From Gammaproteobacteria bacterium (lineage in GTDB: Bacteria; Pseudomonadota; Gammaproteobacteria; SZUA-229): a DNA stretch of 64,000 nucleotides. Under the pieces are notes generated by a model. The model was given only the letters and a program-made list of their open reading frames with translations. It did not search any database and was not told the origin of the DNA. Each line of letters starts with the position of its first letter. The first letter of the stretch is position 1. The stretch is from the NCBI GenBank assembly GCA_015488885.1, contig WFMW01000060.1, positions 1-64,000 of the forward strand. The letters run 5' to 3'. Positions 1-64,000 of this stretch are shown here, piece after piece. Both the position numbers and the translations under genes were made by a program.

Positions 1-414
1 AAAACATGGGCGCTAGATCTGGATGCTGATCTGCTCGGACAGGCAGAACAGGGCTGCGAAGACAATCCAAATTTCCACGCTATTCTCGGCGATGCCCGTG
101 AATTACCCAAACAGCTAACAGAACCAGTCGATTTTGTTTTTATCGCCAATACCTTTCACGGTGTACCGGATAAAACAGAACTGTCGCAGGCCGTACACGA
201 GGTGCTTAAATCCGGTGGGCAGTTTGCGGTGATTAACTGGCATAAACGCCCGCGAGAACAAACGCCTGTATTTGATTTACCCAGAGGCCCCGATACGACG
301 TTGCGGATGACACCGGAAGATGTACAACGCTATGTAGAGCCAGCGGGTTTTAAACTGGATGAAGTCGTCGAAGTTGGCCCTTACCATTATGGTGCGGTAT
401 TTCAGAAAGTTTAA
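1..414 (+). CDS. class I SAM-dependent methyltransferase, C-terminal part
   Basis: The reading frame is open from the first base, so the N-terminus lies outside the window; 137 residues are visible. The visible part holds the second half of a Rossmann-type methyltransferase: an acidic strand end (LDLDAD) near residues 5-10, a GDARELP stretch near 36-42, a VDFVFIANTFHGV strand and a KSGGQFAVINW segment typical of the post-motif III region of Methyltransf_11/25 proteins. Substrate unknown. It ends 27 bp before a methionine-rich protein gene and reads in the same direction as the metal-efflux genes, so it may belong to that island. Confidence 0.8.
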   Translation, partial: KTWALDLDADLLGQAEQGCEDNPNFHAILGDARELPKQLTEPVDFVFIANTFHGVPDKTELSQAVHEVLKSGGQFAVINWHKRPREQTPVFDLPRGPDTTLRMTPEDVQRYVEPAGFKLDEVVEVGPYHYGAVFQKV

Positions 415-441
415 GTTTATTTAAGAAAAGGTGTGAATGTT

Positions 442-705
442 ATGAAAGAAACAATGCAAAAAGTAATGGAAAAGATGATGTCGGGCATGATGAAGCCCGA
501 GGATATGCCTCACATGATGGAAACCATGATGGATAGTGTATTCAAAGAAATGTCGGCAGAAGATCGTATGGCTTTTATGCAGAATATGATGCCTCGCTGC
601 ATGTCGATGATGTTTTCCGAACTGGAGCCTGCTGCCCGTAAAGATCTGGCTGGCTCTATGCTGAAGGGGATGACTGAAGAACTAAAATCTCAACTTGATA
701 AATAA
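442..705 (+). CDS. methionine-rich small protein
   Basis: 87 residues, 22 of them Met, many as MM pairs (EKMMSGMMKPEDMPHMMETMM), with a single Cys in PRCMSMM. No signal peptide or membrane segment is visible, so it should be cytosolic; the pattern predicts amphipathic helices. I chose the ATG at 442 (AAGGTG nine bases upstream); a GTG at 433 in the same frame is an alternative. I do not recognise the family. Met-rich stretches bind Cu(I)/Ag(I) in several known proteins, and the gene lies upstream of a CadC regulator and an RND metal pump, so metal buffering is a reasonable but unproven inference. Confidence 0.7.
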   Translation: MKETMQKVMEKMMSGMMKPEDMPHMMETMMDSVFKEMSAEDRMAFMQNMMPRCMSMMFSELEPAARKDLAGSMLKGMTEELKSQLDK

Positions 706-719
706 ACGAGGAGGTTAGT

Positions 720-1190
720 ATGGATAAGCCAGGTATGAGTCCCCAGATGGGGATGGAGATGATGAAGAAAATGATGGGTGGCGGTGATAGTGAAAGCGGC
801 GGGCCCATGCAGATGTGCAAGGACATGACCTCATCCATCAAGAAAACCGCCTCAATGGCTGCATTTTCAACCCCTGAGCTGCACGCCTTGTTCAGCGAAT
901 GGTTGCAAAGCAAGGAAAAGGACGTGCTCGACACGGTTGCCAAACCCGGAAGGCATGACCTTGCAGGCATTGCCAAAGCCCTGAAGTTAACCCAGCAGAG
1001 TACTGCCTATCTGCTGGCGCGTATGGCCGCCGAAGAAACGTTGACTCTTGAGGTAAAAAGCACCGGTCCCGCCAGCAAGCCTGCCATGAAAAAGAAGGTG
1101 AAACGCCCCGTCAAGGCAATGGCAAAGAAGAAAGTTGCTACTAAAAAGACAGCGGCCAGCAAGAGGGCTACGAGAAAAGCCGGTAAATAG
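720..1190 (+). CDS. Met-rich protein with histone H1-like Lys/Ala tail
   Basis: 156 residues after a strong AGGAGG site. Three zones are visible: residues 1-36 are Met/Gly-rich (11 Met, one Cys); residues 45-105 look globular and resemble a small helix-turn-helix or winged-helix fold (HDLAGIAKALKLTQQST looks like helix 2 and recognition helix); residues 115-156 are an extreme Lys/Ala/Thr tail of the histone H1/AlgP type. The arrangement suggests a DNA-associated protein with a metal-binding head. It lies 14 bp after the other Met-rich gene, so the two are probably co-transcribed. Function not known; I cannot name a family. Confidence 0.7.
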   Translation: MDKPGMSPQMGMEMMKKMMGGGDSESGGPMQMCKDMTSSIKKTASMAAFSTPELHALFSEWLQSKEKDVLDTVAKPGRHDLAGIAKALKLTQQSTAYLLARMAAEETLTLEVKSTGPASKPAMKKKVKRPVKAMAKKKVATKKTAASKRATRKAGK

Positions 1191-2127: not shown

Positions 2128-3588
2128 ATGGCCTACAAATTTATACTGCCTACATTGCTTATCTCGGTCTTTCTATTGACAGGGTTGACGGGTTGCGCGA
2201 GTTATCAACCAGAACCGCTCTCGGCAACAGGAAATATTGCCATCTTCTCGACACGAACATTAGACAGTGAAGCGTTACATCACTTTATACAGGCTCAGCG
2301 CGACCATCCGAAAATGACATGGCCGCTAAAAGCATGGACACTGGATGACCTTACGCTGGTGGCATTGTATTATCATCCTGAACTTGCCCTTGCGCGTGCC
2401 AGATGGGCAGGTGCCCGTGCCCAGGCGATCACTGCGGGCGCGTACCCGAATCCTGTTCTCAAATTTCTTCCACGGTATGCGACAAATTCTGCTGCAGTAT
2501 CACCCTGGACGATTGATCTGTCGGTTGCTATTCCGATATTGACAGCCGGGAAACGCTCGTATCGTATTGCCGAGGCACTGGATCAGGCTGAAGCAGCCCG
2601 GCTTGATGTGGTGCAAAGTGCGTGGCAGATCAGGGCGAATGTACGTCAGCCGTGGCTCCAGCTTTATGCTGCACAACGCCGGGTAATATTATTAAATAAT
2701 CAGCGTAAGGATGCTCAGTCACTGTTGCATGCGCTCAGGCAACAGTTTGTGGCAGGCCAGGTTTCACCGTTGAAAGTGGTTGAGGCGCAGCTGAAGTGGA
2801 CAAATACACGTTTGAGTCTTGTCGATGCGCAGATGGCTGTGAGTCAGGCACGTACGGCACTTGCTGGCGCGGTGTCGGTGCCGGTAACGGCGTTACGCGG
2901 CATACGTTTTAACTTTGATTCAATACAGCAGCTACCCTCACCGGGTAATCTACCTGTTGCGCGTTTTAGAACCTATGCACTAACGCAGCGTGCTGATATT
3001 CGCGCCGTACTGGTGCGCTATGTTGCCAGTGTTCAGGCGCTGAAACTGGCACTTGCACAGCAGTATCCCGATCTGCAAATTGGTCCGGGTTACGAGTGGG
3101 ATCAGGGGGTGCATCGATGGTCGCTAGGATTTTCATTCAGCCTGCCGATTTTTAATCAAAATCAGGGGCCGATTGCTGCGGCGCGTGCGCACAGAGAAAA
3201 ACAGGCGGCTGAATTTCGGCTGTTACAGGAACATATTATGACCCGATTCAACCATGCGTTGGTAGCTTATCGAGCAAGTAATCGCAGTTTAAAACTTTCC
3301 CGGCATCTACTCACTACAGGCCAGACAGAACTTGCTCTGGCACAGGCCTCTCGACGGGCAGGGGAAATGGATCGTGTCGATCTGTTGCGTACCCGGTTAA
3401 AAACACAGGGGTATCATCTTGATGTTCTACAACGGCAGATACAGGCCGAACAGTCACTGGCGGCACTGGAAGATACGCTGGAACATTCGTTACAGCAGCC
3501 GGATGACGTTTCCAAAAGCATGGAAGAAATGGTTTCGTCATCGCCGACTCTGTTTCATCATCCGTTTACGGAGACAGCATCACAATGA
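2128..3588 (+). CDS. TolC/CusC-family outer-membrane efflux lipoprotein
   Basis: 486 residues. An N-terminal lipoprotein signal (TGLTGC lipobox, Cys near residue 21) is followed by two outer-membrane efflux protein repeats rich in Ala/Gln/Leu coiled-coil helices (about 90-300 and 310-470). Such proteins trimerise to form the outer-membrane channel of RND pumps. The start at 2128 is the ATG two bases after the preceding stop, suggesting translational coupling; a longer upstream frame lacks the lipobox at its N-terminus. The stop overlaps the adaptor gene by 4 bp. Confidence 0.9.
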   Translation: MAYKFILPTLLISVFLLTGLTGCASYQPEPLSATGNIAIFSTRTLDSEALHHFIQAQRDHPKMTWPLKAWTLDDLTLVALYYHPELALARARWAGARAQAITAGAYPNPVLKFLPRYATNSAAVSPWTIDLSVAIPILTAGKRSYRIAEALDQAEAARLDVVQSAWQIRANVRQPWLQLYAAQRRVILLNNQRKDAQSLLHALRQQFVAGQVSPLKVVEAQLKWTNTRLSLVDAQMAVSQARTALAGAVSVPVTALRGIRFNFDSIQQLPSPGNLPVARFRTYALTQRADIRAVLVRYVASVQALKLALAQQYPDLQIGPGYEWDQGVHRWSLGFSFSLPIFNQNQGPIAAARAHREKQAAEFRLLQEHIMTRFNHALVAYRASNRSLKLSRHLLTTGQTELALAQASRRAGEMDRVDLLRTRLKTQGYHLDVLQRQIQAEQSLAALEDTLEHSLQQPDDVSKSMEEMVSSSPTLFHHPFTETASQ

Positions 3589-4631
3589 AAAAATTAATCA
3601 CTTTTATGGTCATCGCTGTTATCGCCAGTTCCGGTCTGACGGTAGGGGGTAGTGCGCACGCTGATGAGGATGACGAAGGGCCGTCCATTTCATCACCGCA
3701 GCGTGTTTTTACGCACGCTGGCATCACCTATGTCAAGCTTGATACCGATACGCGAAAAGCCATTGATCTACAGACAAAAGTGCTCAGGTCAGATTCTTAT
3801 CAGGCGAGTCTGAGGGCTTATGGTCAGATTGTTAAGCCGGATGATTTACTCAATAGCTATCAGCAACTTGTCGGGGCGCAGGCAAAGGTGAGTCAGGCGC
3901 GTGCCCGGCTTGATGCATCAAAGGCGGAGTACCAGCGTCTGAATGGTCTTTATCAACATCAGGGTGCCTCGAAAAAAAACCTTCAAAAGGCCTATGCAGT
4001 CTGGCGTTCTGATGAGGCCGTTGTGCAGATTGCCGAATCGCGGAAATTTACTGCCAATAGTAAAGCCAAAGCTCGGTGGGGGAGCTTGATTACTCGCTGG
4101 ATGAACGAATATAGTCCGTCTTTTAAACAACTGGCGGCAGGTCAGAGTCGATTACTGAGACTGACATTGCCGCTGGCTGAAGCTCCTGCGAAGCCGCCTT
4201 TAACCGCCCGGCTGTTATTAGCCAATGCCACCACGGTAACGGTAACACTGCTTGCGTCTGCACCAACAACCGATTCTGACCTACAGGGACAAAGTTATTA
4301 TTTCCTCGCGATTTCTCAGCTCAGTCACATACCGTATGGGCTTGGTGTAACCGGTTTAATGTCTTATGGTGCTCGGCGTAGCGGCGTTGTTGTGCCGGAA
4401 AATGCCGTGGTCTGGTTTCACGGTAGTGCCTGGGCGTATATCAGTGCAGGTGAGGCGCGTTTTGTGCGTACACCGGTGCGTACCGATATGCCGGTACCCG
4501 GTGGCTGGTTTCAGGCCGATGGACTCAGACCGGGTAAACGGATTGTTAGTCGGGGTGCTGAAGTACTACTGTCGGTACAGGCACTGGCAGAGGCACCTAA
4601 AAGCAGTGGCGGTGATCACGATGAGGACTAA
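3585..4631 (+). CDS. RND periplasmic adaptor (CusB/CzcB-like)
   Basis: 348 residues with a cleavable signal peptide ending near SAHA (about residue 26). A helical hairpin with the QARARLDASKAEYQRLNGLYQ pattern is split as expected for a membrane-fusion protein, followed by beta-barrel and membrane-proximal segments (VPENAVVW, GLRPGKRIVSRG). It is on the short side for the CusB family; the lipoyl half-motifs are hard to see. Acidic and His-containing ends (ADEDDEG at the N-terminus, GGDHDED at the C-terminus) could bind metal. Overlaps the channel gene by 4 bp and precedes the pump by 3 bp. Confidence 0.88.
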   Translation: MKKLITFMVIAVIASSGLTVGGSAHADEDDEGPSISSPQRVFTHAGITYVKLDTDTRKAIDLQTKVLRSDSYQASLRAYGQIVKPDDLLNSYQQLVGAQAKVSQARARLDASKAEYQRLNGLYQHQGASKKNLQKAYAVWRSDEAVVQIAESRKFTANSKAKARWGSLITRWMNEYSPSFKQLAAGQSRLLRLTLPLAEAPAKPPLTARLLLANATTVTVTLLASAPTTDSDLQGQSYYFLAISQLSHIPYGLGVTGLMSYGARRSGVVVPENAVVWFHGSAWAYISAGEARFVRTPVRTDMPVPGGWFQADGLRPGKRIVSRGAEVLLSVQALAEAPKSSGGDHDED

Positions 4632-4634
4632 CAA

Positions 4635-7600
4635 ATGCTCCGGCGTATAGTCAATGCCTCACTACAGCACCGCTGGGTGATACTTGTCATCGCCGGTCTG
4701 CTGGTTATTTACGGTGGTTATCGTCTGGGTGATGCAGAATATGATGTATTTCCACAGTTCGCGCCACCGCGGGTAGTGGTGCAGACCGAGGCTCCCGGTC
4801 TTTCGCCCCGTCAGGTTGAGCAGCTTATTACCACCCCGGTAGAAAATGCGATAAAAGGGGTGCCGGGTATCCGCTCCTTGCGTTCGAACTCGATTATGGG
4901 GCTGTCATTAATTACCGCAACCTTTGACCCGAATAGTGATATTTATCGTGATCGTCAAATGGTGGCCGAACGCCTGGTTCCTGTTTCCAGCCAGTTACCC
5001 GCCGGTGCGAAATCGCCAGTGATGATGCCGTTGACTTCTTCAACCGGTAAGGTGCTGGTTGTCGGGCTAACTTCCACAACGCGTTCGTTGATGGATTTGA
5101 ATACGGTAGCACAATGGACGGTGCGCCGCCGCCTGCTGGCAGTTGCAGGGGTAGCGAATGTGGTTGTTACCGGCGGGCAGGTGCGCCAGTTGCAAATTCA
5201 GCTAAACCCACAAAAGCTGGTGCAATATGGCCTGTCCGTTACGGAGGTGACCACAGCCGCAAAGCGTGCAACCGGCATACGCGGGTCAGGGTTTATTGAT
5301 ACTGGCAATCAACGTATTGAATTGCAGACACAGGGCCAGTCGATCACGGCGGCAGCACTGGCGAACATTATCCTGACCACCCGTCATGGGGTACCGGTCA
5401 CACTGGGAGAAGTGGCTGATGTGCGCGCTGCACCCCAGCCACCGGTTGGTGCAGCGCTGATTAATGGCCGTGTGGGTGTCGAATTAAGCATTTTTGAACA
5501 GTATGGTGCCAATACGGTACAGGTCACACAGCGTCTTGAAAAAGCGCTGAATGGACTGCGACCGGCGCTCAGAGCGATGCATATCCAGATGTCACCCGAC
5601 CTGTTCCGGCCGACCACATTTATTCATCGCGCCATCGAGCATTTACGTTCCACGCTGGTAGTCAGTGGTTTGCTGGTTGCGTTGGTACTGTTCTTTTTTC
5701 TATTTAACTGGCGCACGGCACTTATTTCGCTGGTGGCGATTCCACTGTCGTTACTGACAGCGACATTGGCGCTGGAACTATTGGGTTACACGCTTAATAC
5801 CATGACGCTTGGTGGCCTGGCAATTGCGGTCGGACTGCTGGTCGATGATGCGGTTATTACTGTTGAAAATATCTATCGCCGACTACGTGAGAATCAGACG
5901 GCGGCACAATCACAGCCAGTGTTACGGGTTATCCGCGATGCCACGCTGGAAGTGCGTAGCGCAGTGGTTTACGCCACACTTGCTATTGCCATGGTTTTTA
6001 TTCCGGTGCTCACGCTGCCGGGTGTGGCCGGCCGTCTGTTCGGACCGCTGGCCTACGCCTACGTGCTGGCAACACTGGCATCACTGGCTGTGGCGCTAAC
6101 GGTAACCCCGGCACTAAGTTATCTGCTGCTGGCTCATAGCGGGCTTAAAGCCCACGAGCCGCCACTGAGTAAATGGTTCAAGCCACATTATGCCCGGCTA
6201 CTGACTCATGTTGAACGCCATTATCGTCTGGTGATAGTGGCTGTTATTCTGGCCACGATTGCAGGTCTGGCCATTGTGCCTTTTCTTGGTGCACGATTTA
6301 TCCCGGAGCTCAGGGAAGGCCACTACATCGTCCATATGACCGAGAGCGCCGGTACGTCATTAGAACAGACAGAATTACTTGGGAAAACAGTTGCACGAAC
6401 CTTGTTGCAGTTACCCTATGTGCGTTCGGTTGCCCAGAAAATTGGTCGCTCGCCGCAATCGGAAGATGTGTTGGGACCGAATGCCAGTGAGTTTGATGTG
6501 GGCCTCAAAACCTTGAATGGTGCACAGTCACAGATGGCGAGGCGGTCAATTGAACAGACCCTGACGGGTATTCCGGGGGCGAATTTTGCAGTAAAAACGT
6601 TTCTGTCCGAACGTATTGAGGAAACCGTCTCCGGGCAGACGGCTGCGGTGGTCATCCATATCTTTGGCAGGAATATCGCTACAATGAACAGCAATGCAGA
6701 AGCCATTGTGCAGCTTCTACGTAAAATACCCGGTGCCAGCGCAGTTCAGTTGCAGGCACGACCCAGCAGTCCCCGACTGGTGGTGAAATTAAAACCAGCG
6801 GCGATAAAGCGCTGGGGGTTTCATCCACTGGATGTCCTCGATACTCTGCACACTCTTTATGCCGGTGAGGTGGTGGGGCAGGTTTATGATGACGACCGAA
6901 TTTTTGATGTCTCGGTTATTCTGCAGCTTAAAGACCGCGCCAGTGTAGCCGAGGTAGGCAGAGTACTAATAAAAAGTGCCAGTGGTATTTATGTGCCGCT
7001 GGATAAGTTGGCACGGTTGTATGTTACCAGCGGTGCTAAAACCATTTTGCACGAAGGCGGGCGGCGTGTAGTTACGGTAACGGCAAATGTTGTGGGGCGT
7101 GATACAGCATCGTTTGTGGCGCAGGCTCGGGAGGCTATTGCGCGTGACATTCATCTGCCAGCCGGTAGTTATGTGGAATACGCAGGCACGGCGCAAACCC
7201 AGTCGCGATCCACACAACACCTGCTTGCCAGTGCCTTAATCGCGGCAGTATCGATTGCTTTGCTGCTTTCTCTGGTACTGGTCTGGCCGCGAAATTTGTT
7301 GCTGATTCTGTTTAATGTGCCGTTTGCGCTGGTGGGGGGGATGCTGGCCGTTGTGGTATTTCTGGATGGCACGTTATCAATGGGCGGCATGGTCGGCTTT
7401 GTGACGGTCTTTGGCATTACCCTGCGTAACTCTATAATGCTGATCGCGCATTACGAATATTTAACCCGCCACGAGCATTTTGTCTGGGGACAGCAGACAG
7501 CAATCCGTGGCGCGAAAGAGCGAGTGGTGCCCATTCTAATGACTGCGCTGGTTACTGCGCTGGGTTTATTACCACTGGCTTTGACCAGTCAGGCCCCCGG

Positions 7601-7730
7601 TAACGCCATTGAAGGCCCCATGGCCATTGTTATTCTGGGTGGCCTGACCACTTCGACCATACTGAATCTGCTGGTAATGCCAGCACTGGCATTGCGCTAT
7701 GGACAGTTTATGGGTTCTTCGCACAGGTAA
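4635..7730 (+). CDS. heavy-metal efflux RND pump (CzcA/CusA family)
   Basis: 1031 residues, the usual length of HME-RND permeases, with twelve predicted membrane segments and two large periplasmic loops. The proton-relay region of TM4 reads GGLAIAVGLLVDDAVITVEN: the Asp and Glu are present, but the first Asp of the CzcA (Zn/Co/Cd) pattern is Ala, as in Cu/Ag pumps, while the DDAV part matches neither exactly. Substrate therefore cannot be read from this motif alone. The CadC regulator upstream favours Cd/Zn/Pb; the Met-rich neighbours favour Cu/Ag. Last gene of the operon. Confidence 0.92.
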   Translation: MLRRIVNASLQHRWVILVIAGLLVIYGGYRLGDAEYDVFPQFAPPRVVVQTEAPGLSPRQVEQLITTPVENAIKGVPGIRSLRSNSIMGLSLITATFDPNSDIYRDRQMVAERLVPVSSQLPAGAKSPVMMPLTSSTGKVLVVGLTSTTRSLMDLNTVAQWTVRRRLLAVAGVANVVVTGGQVRQLQIQLNPQKLVQYGLSVTEVTTAAKRATGIRGSGFIDTGNQRIELQTQGQSITAAALANIILTTRHGVPVTLGEVADVRAAPQPPVGAALINGRVGVELSIFEQYGANTVQVTQRLEKALNGLRPALRAMHIQMSPDLFRPTTFIHRAIEHLRSTLVVSGLLVALVLFFFLFNWRTALISLVAIPLSLLTATLALELLGYTLNTMTLGGLAIAVGLLVDDAVITVENIYRRLRENQTAAQSQPVLRVIRDATLEVRSAVVYATLAIAMVFIPVLTLPGVAGRLFGPLAYAYVLATLASLAVALTVTPALSYLLLAHSGLKAHEPPLSKWFKPHYARLLTHVERHYRLVIVAVILATIAGLAIVPFLGARFIPELREGHYIVHMTESAGTSLEQTELLGKTVARTLLQLPYVRSVAQKIGRSPQSEDVLGPNASEFDVGLKTLNGAQSQMARRSIEQTLTGIPGANFAVKTFLSERIEETVSGQTAAVVIHIFGRNIATMNSNAEAIVQLLRKIPGASAVQLQARPSSPRLVVKLKPAAIKRWGFHPLDVLDTLHTLYAGEVVGQVYDDDRIFDVSVILQLKDRASVAEVGRVLIKSASGIYVPLDKLARLYVTSGAKTILHEGGRRVVTVTANVVGRDTASFVAQAREAIARDIHLPAGSYVEYAGTAQTQSRSTQHLLASALIAAVSIALLLSLVLVWPRNLLLILFNVPFALVGGMLAVVVFLDGTLSMGGMVGFVTVFGITLRNSIMLIAHYEYLTRHEHFVWGQQTAIRGAKERVVPILMTALVTALGLLPLALTSQAPGNAIEGPMAIVILGGLTTSTILNLLVMPALALRYGQFMGSSHR

Positions 7731-7857
7731 AATTAGTGTCTTATGAATAAACAGCTTACTTATCATTCAGCGCTGTCAGCTGTATCTATGAGGCAGATGT
7801 TCCAGAAAAAATATCAGTTCATGTCACCAGTCATGAATATAAATAAGTTGCCCTGAT

Positions 7858-7876
7858 ATAACGGAATATACGTTAT
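7858..7876. repeat. inverted repeat before the MtrA-like gene
   Basis: ATAACG and CGTTAT arms (7858-7863, 7871-7876) are separated by 7 bp, 37 bp before the start codon at 7913. It could be an operator or chance; no poly-T tract follows, so it is not a terminator. Confidence 0.35.
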
Positions 7877-7912
7877 TTACATATGAATTTAATGCGACAG
7901 GAGTTAGGTATT

Positions 7913-9013
7913 ATGAAAAATAATACAAAACCATTAGAACAGGCTGAAAACGAACTTCGACTGGCGATGGTGGCAAAAAAATGCTGGCGTTGTGGTTGTT
8001 TTCAGACCACGGTTAACACCTTAAAAGACTTTAGTGCGATAACCGAAACGCTTGGCGAGTTATTAAGTGAAGCACAGAACCTGTTTGAGACCAAACGTTA
8101 TGATTGTCTTGGCTGTGATGTGTGCTGGCCTGCAGTGGCGCAGAATATGGCGGCTGAAGTTGATCCGGCTATTGCCGAAGGTGAGCACTGCGCAACACAG
8201 GAGCCGGAAACCCGTGATGGCTGGCCGCCACTACCCGGTGATTATCAGGTGCTGCGTTTTCAGGCACCGGTTGCGGTATGTACATTAAATTCTGATCAGC
8301 TGATCGATGAAATAAAAAACAGCCCGATTGAAGGCCTGTCAATTATTGGTGGCTTGCATACAGAAAATCTCGGCATCGAACATCTCATTCGTAATGTGCT
8401 GGCGAATCCACATATTCGCTATTTAATTATCTGTGGTGAGGATACACGAAAGGCGATTGGGCATTTGCCCGGCCAATCACTGGTCGCGCTTAGTGAGCAT
8501 GGCGTGAATGAAAACATGCGTATCATTGAAGCAAAAGGCAAACGCCCAATGTTGAAAAACATTCCACTGGAATACGTCGAAGCATTTCGTAAACAGGTAC
8601 GGATTATCAATCAAATCGGTGAAGTTGATGTCACATTATTGCAGAGTTTAATTATCCGTACGGCGAGTAATGACCCGGGTACGTTTGCTGGTGCGCTGAA
8701 AGATATTATTTCTGTATCGGTTGAAAAAGCCGATGAACCGGGCAGGCTGAAACTTGATCCGGCTGGTTATTTTGTGGTGATGCCCGATCGCACGCAGCAG
8801 CAACTGGTGGTCGAACACTACAGTAACAGGGGTATACTAAATCGGATTTTTACCGCAGACAACGCTGCTGCCTTATATACGCATATCATAAAACATGAAT
8901 TTATCAGTCGGCTAGATCATGCAGCGTACCTGGGGCGTGAGCTGGCACGTGCCGAGCAGACACTGCTAAGTGGTGAAACTTATAGTCAGGATCGTGCGCC
9001 GGGCGAACTGTAG
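7913..9013 (+). CDS. MtrA-like corrinoid protein with Cys-rich N-terminal region
   Basis: 366 residues, soluble. Residues 20-80 hold two Cys clusters (CWRCGC at 24-29, CLGCDVC at 65-71) suited to a metal or Fe-S site. Residues 103-240 match subunit A of the methanogen methyl-H4MPT:coenzyme M methyltransferase: GWPPLPGDY, PVAVCTL, GGLHTENLGIEHLI, the LIICGED loop and GHLPGQ, whose His184 corresponds to the lower axial cobalamin ligand of archaeal MtrA. Residues 278-350 resemble the DUF4346 tail. The archaeal C-terminal membrane anchor is absent. Start at 7913 has AGGAG upstream; the ATG at 7883 does not. No other mtr subunit is nearby, so it cannot act as the Na+-pumping complex; a corrinoid methyl carrier is a plausible inference. 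Confidence 0.82.
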   Translation: MKNNTKPLEQAENELRLAMVAKKCWRCGCFQTTVNTLKDFSAITETLGELLSEAQNLFETKRYDCLGCDVCWPAVAQNMAAEVDPAIAEGEHCATQEPETRDGWPPLPGDYQVLRFQAPVAVCTLNSDQLIDEIKNSPIEGLSIIGGLHTENLGIEHLIRNVLANPHIRYLIICGEDTRKAIGHLPGQSLVALSEHGVNENMRIIEAKGKRPMLKNIPLEYVEAFRKQVRIINQIGEVDVTLLQSLIIRTASNDPGTFAGALKDIISVSVEKADEPGRLKLDPAGYFVVMPDRTQQQLVVEHYSNRGILNRIFTADNAAALYTHIIKHEFISRLDHAAYLGRELARAEQTLLSGETYSQDRAPGEL

Positions 9014-26263: not shown

Positions 26264-27898
26264 CTATCCCGCGCAGCAGGATAGTTGTTTCACGTCTTTA
26301 TGAAAGGTTTGTGCTGTTAGTTTCAGGCCTTCAACCATGGTCAGGTAAGGGAATAACTCGTTGGTAAGTTCATCAATGGTCATCCGGCTGCGTATTGCCA
26401 GTACGGCTGTCTGGATAATTTCACCTCCGTGGCTGGCCAGCACCTGACATCCCACTATTCTGCCTGATATTTTTTCCGCCACCAGTTTGATAAACCCTCT
26501 GGTGTCCAGATTGGCTAATGCACGGGGTACATTTTCCAGATCCAGCTTTCGGCTGGTCACATCCAGCCCCTGATTCTGTGCCTGTTGCTCGCTCAGGCCA
26601 ACTGTCGCCACCTGCGGGTCGGTGAATACTACCGCCGGCATGGCCGATAGATTAATGCTGGCATCACCGCCGGTCATATTGATGGCAGCACGTGTACCTG
26701 CCGCCGCCGCCACGTAAACATATTGCGGCTGAGTGGTGCAGTCCCCGGCGGCAAAGATATTGGCCTGGCTGGTACGCATATGATCATCAATAATGATATT
26801 GCCTGAGTGACTGGTTTCAACCCCGGCATTGTCCAGAGCCAGGGTGTCCGCATTAGACTGACGACCCGTTGCAACCAGCAACTGATCGCTATGTACTTCT
26901 GCCTGCTGTGTGCGGATGATAAAACCGTTATTCTCATATTTAACGGTATCAGGGACAGTGTGTAAGACAACGTTTATGCCTTCATTTTCAAGCATTACTT
27001 TCAGCCCTTCACCAATATCCGGGTCTTCTCGAGATAACAGGGTGCTGCGAGCCATAATGGTAACGTTGGCACCCAGATGGTGGAAGGCCTGTGCCAGTTC
27101 CAGCGCCACCACTGAGCCACCCAATACCACAAGGTGTTCGGGAACCTGCTCTGCAATCAAGGCTTCGGTCGATGTCCAGTACGGGGTATCCATAAGGCCG
27201 CTTATGTCAGGAATCCTCGGTCTTGCACCCACCGCAAGTAAAAAGCGGTCGGCGGTTATTGCCTGCTCAGTGCCATCATGTCTGCTAACGACCAGCGTCG
27301 TGCTGTCTTTGAAACGGGCTTTGCCCTTTAACAGCTGAATATCCGGGCTGTCTTCAAGAATACTTTCATATTTGGCATAACGTAAAGCTTCAACCTTGTT
27401 TTGCTGCTGCCTGACCATGGTGTGACGATCAATCTCTGGAGTATTGTAAGCAAGGCCTGCGAAGTTATGGTGTTGCTGAAGCCAGGCGATATGTGCCCCC
27501 TGAATCATGATTTTGGAGGGTACGCAACCAACATTGACACAGGTGCCGCCAATCATATCAGCGGCTTCAATAAGCGTTACCCGGGCACCGCGTTCAACGG
27601 CCTTGATGGCTGCCGCAAACGCACCGGAACCGGTTCCGACAATAGCAATATGCAAACCATTCTGGTCGTCTTCTATTGCCGGGTTATTTTTATCCACCAG
27701 CGTTGCGCCATAACCTTTTGCTTCGATCGCGGTCAATAATAAAGTGCTGTCCAATGTCGGCGGGATTTCAGCTGTTGCCAGGTTCTGCTCAAAAGAAACC
27801 GAGGCCTTAACGCCGGTCAGGGCATTTAATGCGTCCTGTACGCTCTGGGCGCAATGGTCACAGGTCATGCCTGTTACTTGTATATCGATGATGTTCAT
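26264..27898 (-). CDS. merA: mercuric reductase
   Basis: 544 residues. Reduces Hg(II) to volatile Hg(0) with NADPH. An HMA domain (GMTCDHC, residues 10-16) leads into the flavoprotein: VGTGSGAFAAAI (FAD), GGTCVNVGCVPSKIMI (redox Cys pair), NAD-binding LVVLGGSVVALELA, IFAAGDCTT, and the C-terminal Cys pair in LSCCAG that takes over Hg(II). The Tyr of FPYLTMVEGLKL is present. Second gene of a merC-merA operon; the 60-bp gap to merC holds its ribosome site. Confidence 0.97.
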   Translation of the reverse strand: MNIIDIQVTGMTCDHCAQSVQDALNALTGVKASVSFEQNLATAEIPPTLDSTLLLTAIEAKGYGATLVDKNNPAIEDDQNGLHIAIVGTGSGAFAAAIKAVERGARVTLIEAADMIGGTCVNVGCVPSKIMIQGAHIAWLQQHHNFAGLAYNTPEIDRHTMVRQQQNKVEALRYAKYESILEDSPDIQLLKGKARFKDSTTLVVSRHDGTEQAITADRFLLAVGARPRIPDISGLMDTPYWTSTEALIAEQVPEHLVVLGGSVVALELAQAFHHLGANVTIMARSTLLSREDPDIGEGLKVMLENEGINVVLHTVPDTVKYENNGFIIRTQQAEVHSDQLLVATGRQSNADTLALDNAGVETSHSGNIIIDDHMRTSQANIFAAGDCTTQPQYVYVAAAAGTRAAINMTGGDASINLSAMPAVVFTDPQVATVGLSEQQAQNQGLDVTSRKLDLENVPRALANLDTRGFIKLVAEKISGRIVGCQVLASHGGEIIQTAVLAIRSRMTIDELTNELFPYLTMVEGLKLTAQTFHKDVKQLSCCAG

Positions 27899-27958
27899 AT
27901 TGCTGTCCTTTGTACAGGTTTTTTAAGCCGTGGTTACTAATGATTACTAAAGTGATGG

Positions 27959-28375
27959 TTAAATGGTGCAGTTTTTATCGTTGCAACGTTTACTGGCCGG
28001 ATAAATTAAATCCACAATGGCTACAACCACCATCAGAATTAGTGCGGAGTAGGTTACATAGGTACTCCAGCTATATTCAAATAACGGGTATAAAGACAAC
28101 AGTAGAAGCGTGGGGCCGACCATGCCTGCTAAACTGCGCAGCCATTGTTTATGGGCAAAATAACCCAGTGCATTAATTACCAAAGCTAACCAGGCAAAGG
28201 CGGGTAACAGGGTGTTTACAAACAGGCCTTCCCATTGAGCAAGAAACCCCATACCCATGGCGCCACCCAGGCTGGCAATAGCCGGAAAACACATTGAGCA
28301 GCCCATGGCCGATATAACCGCACCGAAGGCGCTGATTTTGTCACCTGAACGGGTAAACAGATTAAAAAAATTCAT
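27959..28375 (-). CDS. merC: MerC mercury transport protein
   Basis: 138 residues, four membrane segments. The TM1 Cys pair lies in AMGCSMCFPAIASLGGAMGMGF, and a C-terminal pair in RCNDKNC; both match MerC. It carries Hg(II) across the inner membrane to MerA. First gene after a MerR-type promoter. Confidence 0.94.
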   Translation of the reverse strand: MNFFNLFTRSGDKISAFGAVISAMGCSMCFPAIASLGGAMGMGFLAQWEGLFVNTLLPAFAWLALVINALGYFAHKQWLRSLAGMVGPTLLLLSLYPLFEYSWSTYVTYSALILMVVVAIVDLIYPASKRCNDKNCTI

Positions 28376-63399: not shown

Positions 63400-64000
63400 T
63401 CAATCCTCAATCTGTAACGTATCCACAGGGCTTTGTACGGTCACCCCCGGCTTGTTCAGTATATGCGTATAAATCATCGTTGTGTTGATATCCGAATGCC
63501 CGAGCAATTCCTGCACTGTTCGAATATCCTGCCCGGCGGCCAGCAAATGTGTAGCGAAGGAGTGGCGCAAGGTATGCGACGATACTTTTTTACGAATCTT
63601 CGCCTTCAATGCGGCCTGGCGAATAGCCCGTTGTAGCGTCGTTTCATGTAAATGATGCCGCCGAGACAGACCGGTTCGAGGATCCACCGACAGTTTAGAT
63701 GCAGGAAAAAGATACTGCCAGATCAATTCAGTTGCTGCATTCGCGTATTTCTTATCCAGCGCATGGGGCAAAAACACACGCCCCGCACCCATAGCCAGAT
63801 CCTTCTCATGTAACGCAGTAACCACCTCAATCTGCTGCGCAAGCGGGGCAATATAGCGTTTCGGCAAAGGCACGACGCGATCCTTGCCGCCCTTGCCATC
63901 ACGAATAATAATCTGCTGATAATCAAAATCAACATCCTGCACCCGTAAGCGCATACAGTCCATAATTCGCATACCCGTCCCATACATCAACCCCGCCATA
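63400..64000 (-). CDS. intI: integron integrase IntI, C-terminal part
   Basis: At least 200 residues are visible; the 5' end lies beyond the right edge. Tyrosine-recombinase catalytic residues are seen: Arg in GTGMRIMDCMRLRVQDVDF, His-x-x-Arg in HTLRHSFATHLL, His in LLGHSDINTTMIYTH with the nucleophile Tyr. The IntI-specific insert is present (about LDKKYANAATELIWQYLFPA). Its attI and own cassette array, if any, would lie to the right, since intI and attI usually diverge. Not adjacent to the array at 9091. Confidence 0.93.
   Translation of the reverse strand, partial: MAGLMYGTGMRIMDCMRLRVQDVDFDYQQIIIRDGKGGKDRVVPLPKRYIAPLAQQIEVVTALHEKDLAMGAGRVFLPHALDKKYANAATELIWQYLFPASKLSVDPRTGLSRRHHLHETTLQRAIRQAALKAKIRKKVSSHTLRHSFATHLLAAGQDIRTVQELLGHSDINTTMIYTHILNKPGVTVQSPVDTLQIED

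Follow-up and report, generated by a model that had tools for sequence, protein, structure and literature searches.

The window (the whole stretch of DNA analyzed, 64,000 nucleotides) carries near its start a gene for an MtrA-like corrinoid protein, which lies downstream of a metal-sensing regulator and of membrane and efflux components. The features of this region are the following.

1–414, + strand: 3′ part of a gene for a SAM-dependent (UbiE/ArsM-like) methyltransferase; operon membership uncertain
433–705 and 720–1190, + strand: two small Met-rich open reading frames that travel with the methyltransferase; operon membership uncertain
1251–1676, + strand: ArsR/SmtB-family regulator of the CadC type, with the alpha3N cysteines DTCNVPC ... 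ELCVCD
1258–1279, − strand: operator copy 1, CATTTCGATATTTTCGAAAATG, upstream of arsR
1698–1719, + strand: operator copy 2, CATTTCGATATTATCGAAAATG, between arsR and the operon
1745–2125, + strand: MerC-like membrane protein (PF03203), with one of the two MerC TM1 cysteines kept
2128–3588, + strand: TolC/NodT-type outer-membrane efflux protein of the RND system
3585–4631, + strand: RND periplasmic adaptor
4635–7730, + strand: CusA/CzcA-family heavy-metal RND pump (E = 1e-189)
7913–9013, + strand: MtrA-like corrinoid protein, 366 residues (Pfam, NCBIfam and PDB matches, alignment), made of a Cys-rich N-domain (residues 1–98), an MtrA domain (100–261, with His184/Glu151) and a PterinBD-DUF4346 domain (281–360)

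The reading frame at 7913–9013 is real, and relatives do not share the alternative in-frame ATG at 7883. The initial annotation had ascribed to its product an MtrA core with a presumed axial His, a Cys-rich N-terminal extension, a DUF4346-like tail and no membrane anchor, and all four attributes are borne out. Pfam places MtrA (PF04208) at residues 100–261 (E = 1.3e-38) and PterinBD-DUF4346 (PF14251) at 281–360 (E = 3.5e-23), and the solved MtrA structures 5laa, 8q3v, 5l8x and 9qtq are matched with E down to 1.7e-40. The Rossmann-type domain in common with MtrA, the corrinoid subunit of the Na+-pumping methyl-H4MPT:CoM methyltransferase, spans 160 residues and is about 42% identical to the solved core. 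In the MtrA–cobalamin structure His84 is the cobalt ligand and is itself linked to Glu54 and to a conserved meander, GAIPF(Y/F)xEN (PMC4915002). Alignment sets His184 on MtrA His84 and Glu151/Asn152 on Glu54/Asn55, and all three residues are invariant across seven diverse sequences, the solved core among them. With these ligands conserved, the protein very probably binds a cobamide. It departs from MtrA in its meander (GKRPxxKN in the gamma members, GAIPxxEN in MtrA), in three extra residues that precede the His of the gamma and Paraburkholderia proteins, and in its solubility: DUF4346 replaces the C-terminal transmembrane anchor, and we found no hydrophobic segment or membrane helix (best 19-residue mean hydropathy, 0.97).

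The N-terminal 98 residues have no match in Pfam nor, by profile, in the PDB. They carry the motifs C24xxCxC29 and C65xxCxxC71 that had been noted before, plus C93, and all seven cysteines (24, 27, 29, 65, 68, 71 and 93) are invariant in the 10 relatives aligned. Several relatives of the protein also end in CGC tails. The domain is rather likely to bind metal. The Fe-S activation site that the initial annotation had envisaged here is not established; given the CGC tails and the CGC repeats of a Planococcus homologue (see below), the resemblance of the Cys-rich parts to segments that bind soft metals is at least as good. Extension and tail are, on profile evidence, not unique to this protein, as the NCBIfam model NF002128 (PRK00964.1-6), named MtrA, already covers the full architecture; it matches residues 4–365 at 503.7 bits, under its curated cutoff of 568, with other members of the class reaching 548. 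An AlphaFold model built from ten close homologues was poor (pLDDT 46).

A survey of the genomic neighbors of bacterial homologues uncovered what the initial annotation had missed, namely a metal-resistance operon with a CadC-type arsR gene. Clustering the neighbors of twelve gamma- and zetaproteobacterial loci gave a conserved order: arsR, then a MerC-like protein (seven loci) or two SMR proteins (four loci), the MtrA-like protein, a thioredoxin and a DsbD/CcdA-type protein. The CadC-type arsR stands upstream of the mtrA-like gene in 11 of the 12, including the window; the twelfth, L019, is a 6-kb contig with no arsR on it. Thioredoxin and DsbD_TM follow the mtrA-like gene on its 3′ side in seven of the twelve. 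Neighboring genes overlap (mtrA-like and trx by about 10 bp), as would be the case in a single transcript. The thioredoxin has a single Cys and, given its N-terminal hydrophobic stretch, is probably periplasmic. Further exporters are locus-specific additions: CDF proteins in three loci (L015, L019 and L023), a MacB-type ABC transporter in L015 and L019, and in the window the CzcA/CusA RND system between regulator and mtrA-like gene. A SAM-methyltransferase lies near the operon in four loci (window 1–1190, L014:7422–8776, L016:162–776 and L020:4022–5259), accompanied in three of them by the two Met-rich open reading frames. Since the linkage is confined to these four loci, we do not count this module as part of the operon core.

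The regulator resembles the solved CadC (1u2w) and Listeria Lmo1102 (9t6r), and its true start is probably the ATG at 1290. Its DTCxxxC and ELCVCD motifs are the equivalents of CadC C7, C11, C58 and C60, which form an S3/S4 site that binds Cd, Pb and Bi (PMC1665450), and the four alpha3N ligands are kept in all linked arsR copies. Every locus with a CadC-type arsR has CATTTCGATATTATCGAAAATG or a degenerate form of it before arsR and another after, so that paired palindromic operators flank the regulator as they do in CadC-regulated resistance operons. At up to three mismatches there are 22 such sites in 11 loci, nearly all flanking arsR, against 0.4 expected from Markov shuffles. In whole carrier genomes the sites with at most two mismatches are exclusively those that flank arsR, and the regulator is thus probably dedicated to the operon. 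The sensor, the operator pair and the metal exporters are shared with CadC-regulated cad/pbr-type operons, a likeness that in Planococcus extends to a Cd-type P-ATPase; the present operons differ in the added corrinoid protein and Trx/DsbD, and in their exporter, which varies between loci: the window has the RND system, other loci a CDF protein or a P-ATPase. With the mer operons (MerC, MerA, MerB) they share the MerC-like protein, whereas the conserved operon lacks merA, merB and merR. Its MerC-like protein retains a single TM1 cysteine where MerC has two, and may for that reason be no metal importer.

Taken together, the gene order, sensor and operators argue strongly that the mtrA-like gene belongs to a CadC-type-regulated soft-metal resistance operon. 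The literature searched on MtrA, cobalamin or corrinoids and metal resistance held no report of such an association, and no paper on DUF4346 was found there. Databases file the protein as a subunit of methanogen energy metabolism, but its actual setting is metal resistance, and this context, which contradicts the function implied by the name of NF002128, points to a B12 methyl carrier as a means by which some bacteria deal with toxic metals. The initial annotation had thought of an undescribed methyl-transfer reaction; because of the operon, that proposal can be narrowed to a metal-resistance setting.

Homology to MtrA and the database name would fit a membrane-free remnant of methanogen-type C1 metabolism acting on methyl-H4MPT or CoM. 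The H4MPT marker methenyl-H4MPT cyclohydrolase (MCH) is absent from all seven genomes with an MtrA homologue that were checked (that of the window, G000, and six others), and the open reading frames of the window show no further mtr gene, as had been noticed at the outset. These absences argue that the protein does not serve such a metabolism, and the altered meander and the metal-operon context count against it as well. We therefore reject that role for lack of MCH; the remnant is largely refuted and has next to no likelihood. What stands of the earlier proposal is a soluble carrier of corrinoid with no part in methanogen metabolism, in keeping with the core, the ligands, the missing anchor and the missing MCH. 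The genome of the window has a B12-dependent methionine synthase, MetH. CobS was not found in this genome, which suggests that the cobamide must be imported or salvaged. MetH leads to a further reading, in which the operon shields one-carbon metabolism from metals: soft metals strip methyl groups from methylcobalamin, and the operon would supply a metal-tolerant back-up carrier for methionine or another acceptor. MtrA has indeed been predicted as the methyl donor for the core methionine synthases of methanogens (PMC7857596), yet no conserved operon contains a gene for methionine synthase or for another methyl acceptor, and we regard this reading as very unlikely.

We tentatively favor, at a likelihood just short of even, a cytosolic corrinoid protein that methylates a thiophilic metal, the product being exported or volatilized. 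Metal sensed by the CadC-type repressor on its two operators would release the operon, and the Cys-rich N-terminal domain, with the CGC tail in relatives, would take up the metal. The MtrA domain would carry a His-ligated cobamide, whose Co(I) would be loaded with a methyl group from methyl-folate or SAM, the donors considered because H4MPT is absent; DUF4346 would perhaps present the methyl group. The methyl group would then pass from the cobamide to the metal held by the Cys-rich domain. This transfer to a metal is the more tentative element, with the balance leaning somewhat against it, and we infer both its direction and a Cd/Pb/Bi/Hg-like target. The methylated, more lipophilic product would volatilize or leave through the exporter of the operon, which by locus is an SMR pair, an RND, CDF or ABC system or a P-type ATPase, types that fit ionic or lipophilic products.

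A precedent exists in HgcAB, the mercury methylase, in which a corrinoid protein methylates a soft metal with SAM as donor (PMC11588087). The scheme is analogous, a corrinoid methyl carrier combined with Cys-rich metal handling, but HgcAB differs in its CFeSP/CdhD-type corrinoid fold, its transmembrane domain, its separate ferredoxin HgcB and its Cys axial ligand. The window protein has no Pfam match to a CFeSP/CdhD-type domain, and no HgcB-like open reading frame was recognized nearby. The operon may thus represent a second, HgcAB-independent corrinoid route by which soft metals are methylated (or demethylated) as a means of resistance, and it is possible, with some reserve, that this route consists of a carrier of the MtrA fold that includes a metal-binding domain and has spread by way of plasmids and transposons, controlled by a metal sensor. 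If methyl groups move to or from metals here, bacteria that do not count as methylators would have a new route of metal(loid) alkylation, and its marker gene would have been overlooked by surveys seeking hgcA, merB or arsM only.

Transfer in the opposite sense would make the protein an organometal demethylase, the corrinoid counterpart of MerB, whose Cob(I) strips a methyl group from a metal or metalloid onto a pterin or thiol, with the bared metal then exported or reduced. Lipophilic cations, as which an organometal would probably occur, are exported by SMR pairs, and organomercurial transporters belong to the MerC family; a merA gene is present within the same window, and DUF4346 also occurs on dihydropteroate-synthase-like proteins, one genome with which has MCH, a possible link to pterins. 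Known CadC-type alpha3N sensors, however, respond to inorganic Cd, Pb and Bi, the MerC-like protein lacks one TM1 Cys, and the conserved operon is without merA or another metal reductase, so that we hold demethylation to be quite unlikely. It is also conceivable that no methyl chemistry takes place and that the protein is a Cys-rich metal chaperone or buffer, or a redox protein, which passes metal on to the exporter; its corrinoid domain would then be retained for redox work, with the Trx/DsbD chain feeding it. The conserved Cys motifs, CGC tails and repeats, the exporters in every operon and the thiol-redox partners are consistent with such a role. Against it, the MtrA-like protein lacks an export signal, whereas the thioredoxin is probably located in the periplasm, and the strictly conserved His/Glu cobalt-ligand pair, together with DUF4346, suggests methyl-carrier chemistry; we consider the role unlikely. 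A methyl carrier with a thiophilic metal as acceptor is the most economical model.

Carriage of the mtrA-like gene is sporadic. It was found in 2 of 54 genomes of the order, in 5 of 274 and 7 of 369 in two draws of the class, each count with partial or second-subtype matches included, in 2 of 398 of the phylum and in 1 of 78 Zetaproteobacteria. The genome of the window has one MtrA homologue, and the nearest relatives of the protein are from gammaproteobacterial MAGs, in agreement with the class given for this DNA. When one genome per species was scanned, ten loci came up, each in a gammaproteobacterial, Acidiferrobacterales or zetaproteobacterial MAG; a scan of viral contigs gave no relative. 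Among plasmid records, homologues occur on three Planococcus plasmids and one Paraburkholderia replicon. The Planococcus plasmids have the order ArsR/SmtB, HMA, Cd-type P-ATPase, mtrA-like gene and ISL3 transposase, and their homologue is distant (about 41% identity over the MtrA–DUF4346 part), with further CGC(N/D)xxxC repeats in its N-terminal part. The association with metal export is thus independent in Gram-positives and Gram-negatives, which makes coincidence unlikely. In the Paraburkholderia locus (L027) the Cys domain is kept and no recognizable metal gene lies within 8 kb; the link to metals is therefore strong, not universal. A Tn3 transposase adjoins or follows the operon in L015, and the adjoining transposases and sporadic carriage indicate that the resistance operon moves horizontally.

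A second MtrA–DUF4346 subtype, without the Cys-rich domain, is encoded at L033:9506–10369 and L065:9321–10181, where we saw no CadC-type operon, and the MtrA–DUF4346 core must therefore have other uses. In L033 a small conserved gene and a gene for an sqr-like flavoprotein lie directly beside it. A link of MtrA to sulfide oxidation, suggested by L006 and L033 (sqr-like gene, DUF1641), was set aside as it concerns this second subtype. Weak NF002128 matches in seven other gammaproteobacteria (L007–L013) were likewise discarded: they are not MtrA and have the DUF4346 tail motif only, at the end of long open reading frames that read like dihydropteroate-synthase-like proteins. The one genome of that set that was checked for MCH, G002, has it.

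The copy in the window appears rearranged. Its DNA is 85.6% identical to L014 exactly up to position 9010, where the identity ends; L014 continues with the CGC tail, trx and dsbD, and the window with a stop codon and a run of small toxin–antitoxin-like open reading frames with attC-like repeats. Relative to L014 the gene thus looks 3′-truncated, with the CGC tail and trx-dsbD lost, and no close copy of the operon's dsbD was found in the genome. With the RND genes between merC-like and mtrA-like genes and the 3′ part gone, we regard the operon of the window as a rearranged version, and this seemingly truncated copy without trx and dsbD may be less active. The segment 9011–13375 holds small open reading frames (a methyltransferase-like one and several toxin–antitoxin pairs) with attC-like repeats, CATAACAAGGCAATAAA...GTTATG, between them, and these are probably cassettes of the integron type, by which the mtrA-like gene was cut short. 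A second inverted repeat, ATAACGgaatataCGTTAT, lies at 7855–7885 just upstream of the mtrA-like start and is possibly the gene's own promoter or operator in the rearranged locus. At the far end of the window, cut by its border, is a tyrosine recombinase (63400–63999, − strand; Pfam phage integrase) that is integron-integrase-like. A separate merC-merA pair is located at 26264–28375 (− strand); its MerC keeps both TM1 cysteines, and its MerA has an HMA domain and a pyridine nucleotide reductase part ending in CCAG.
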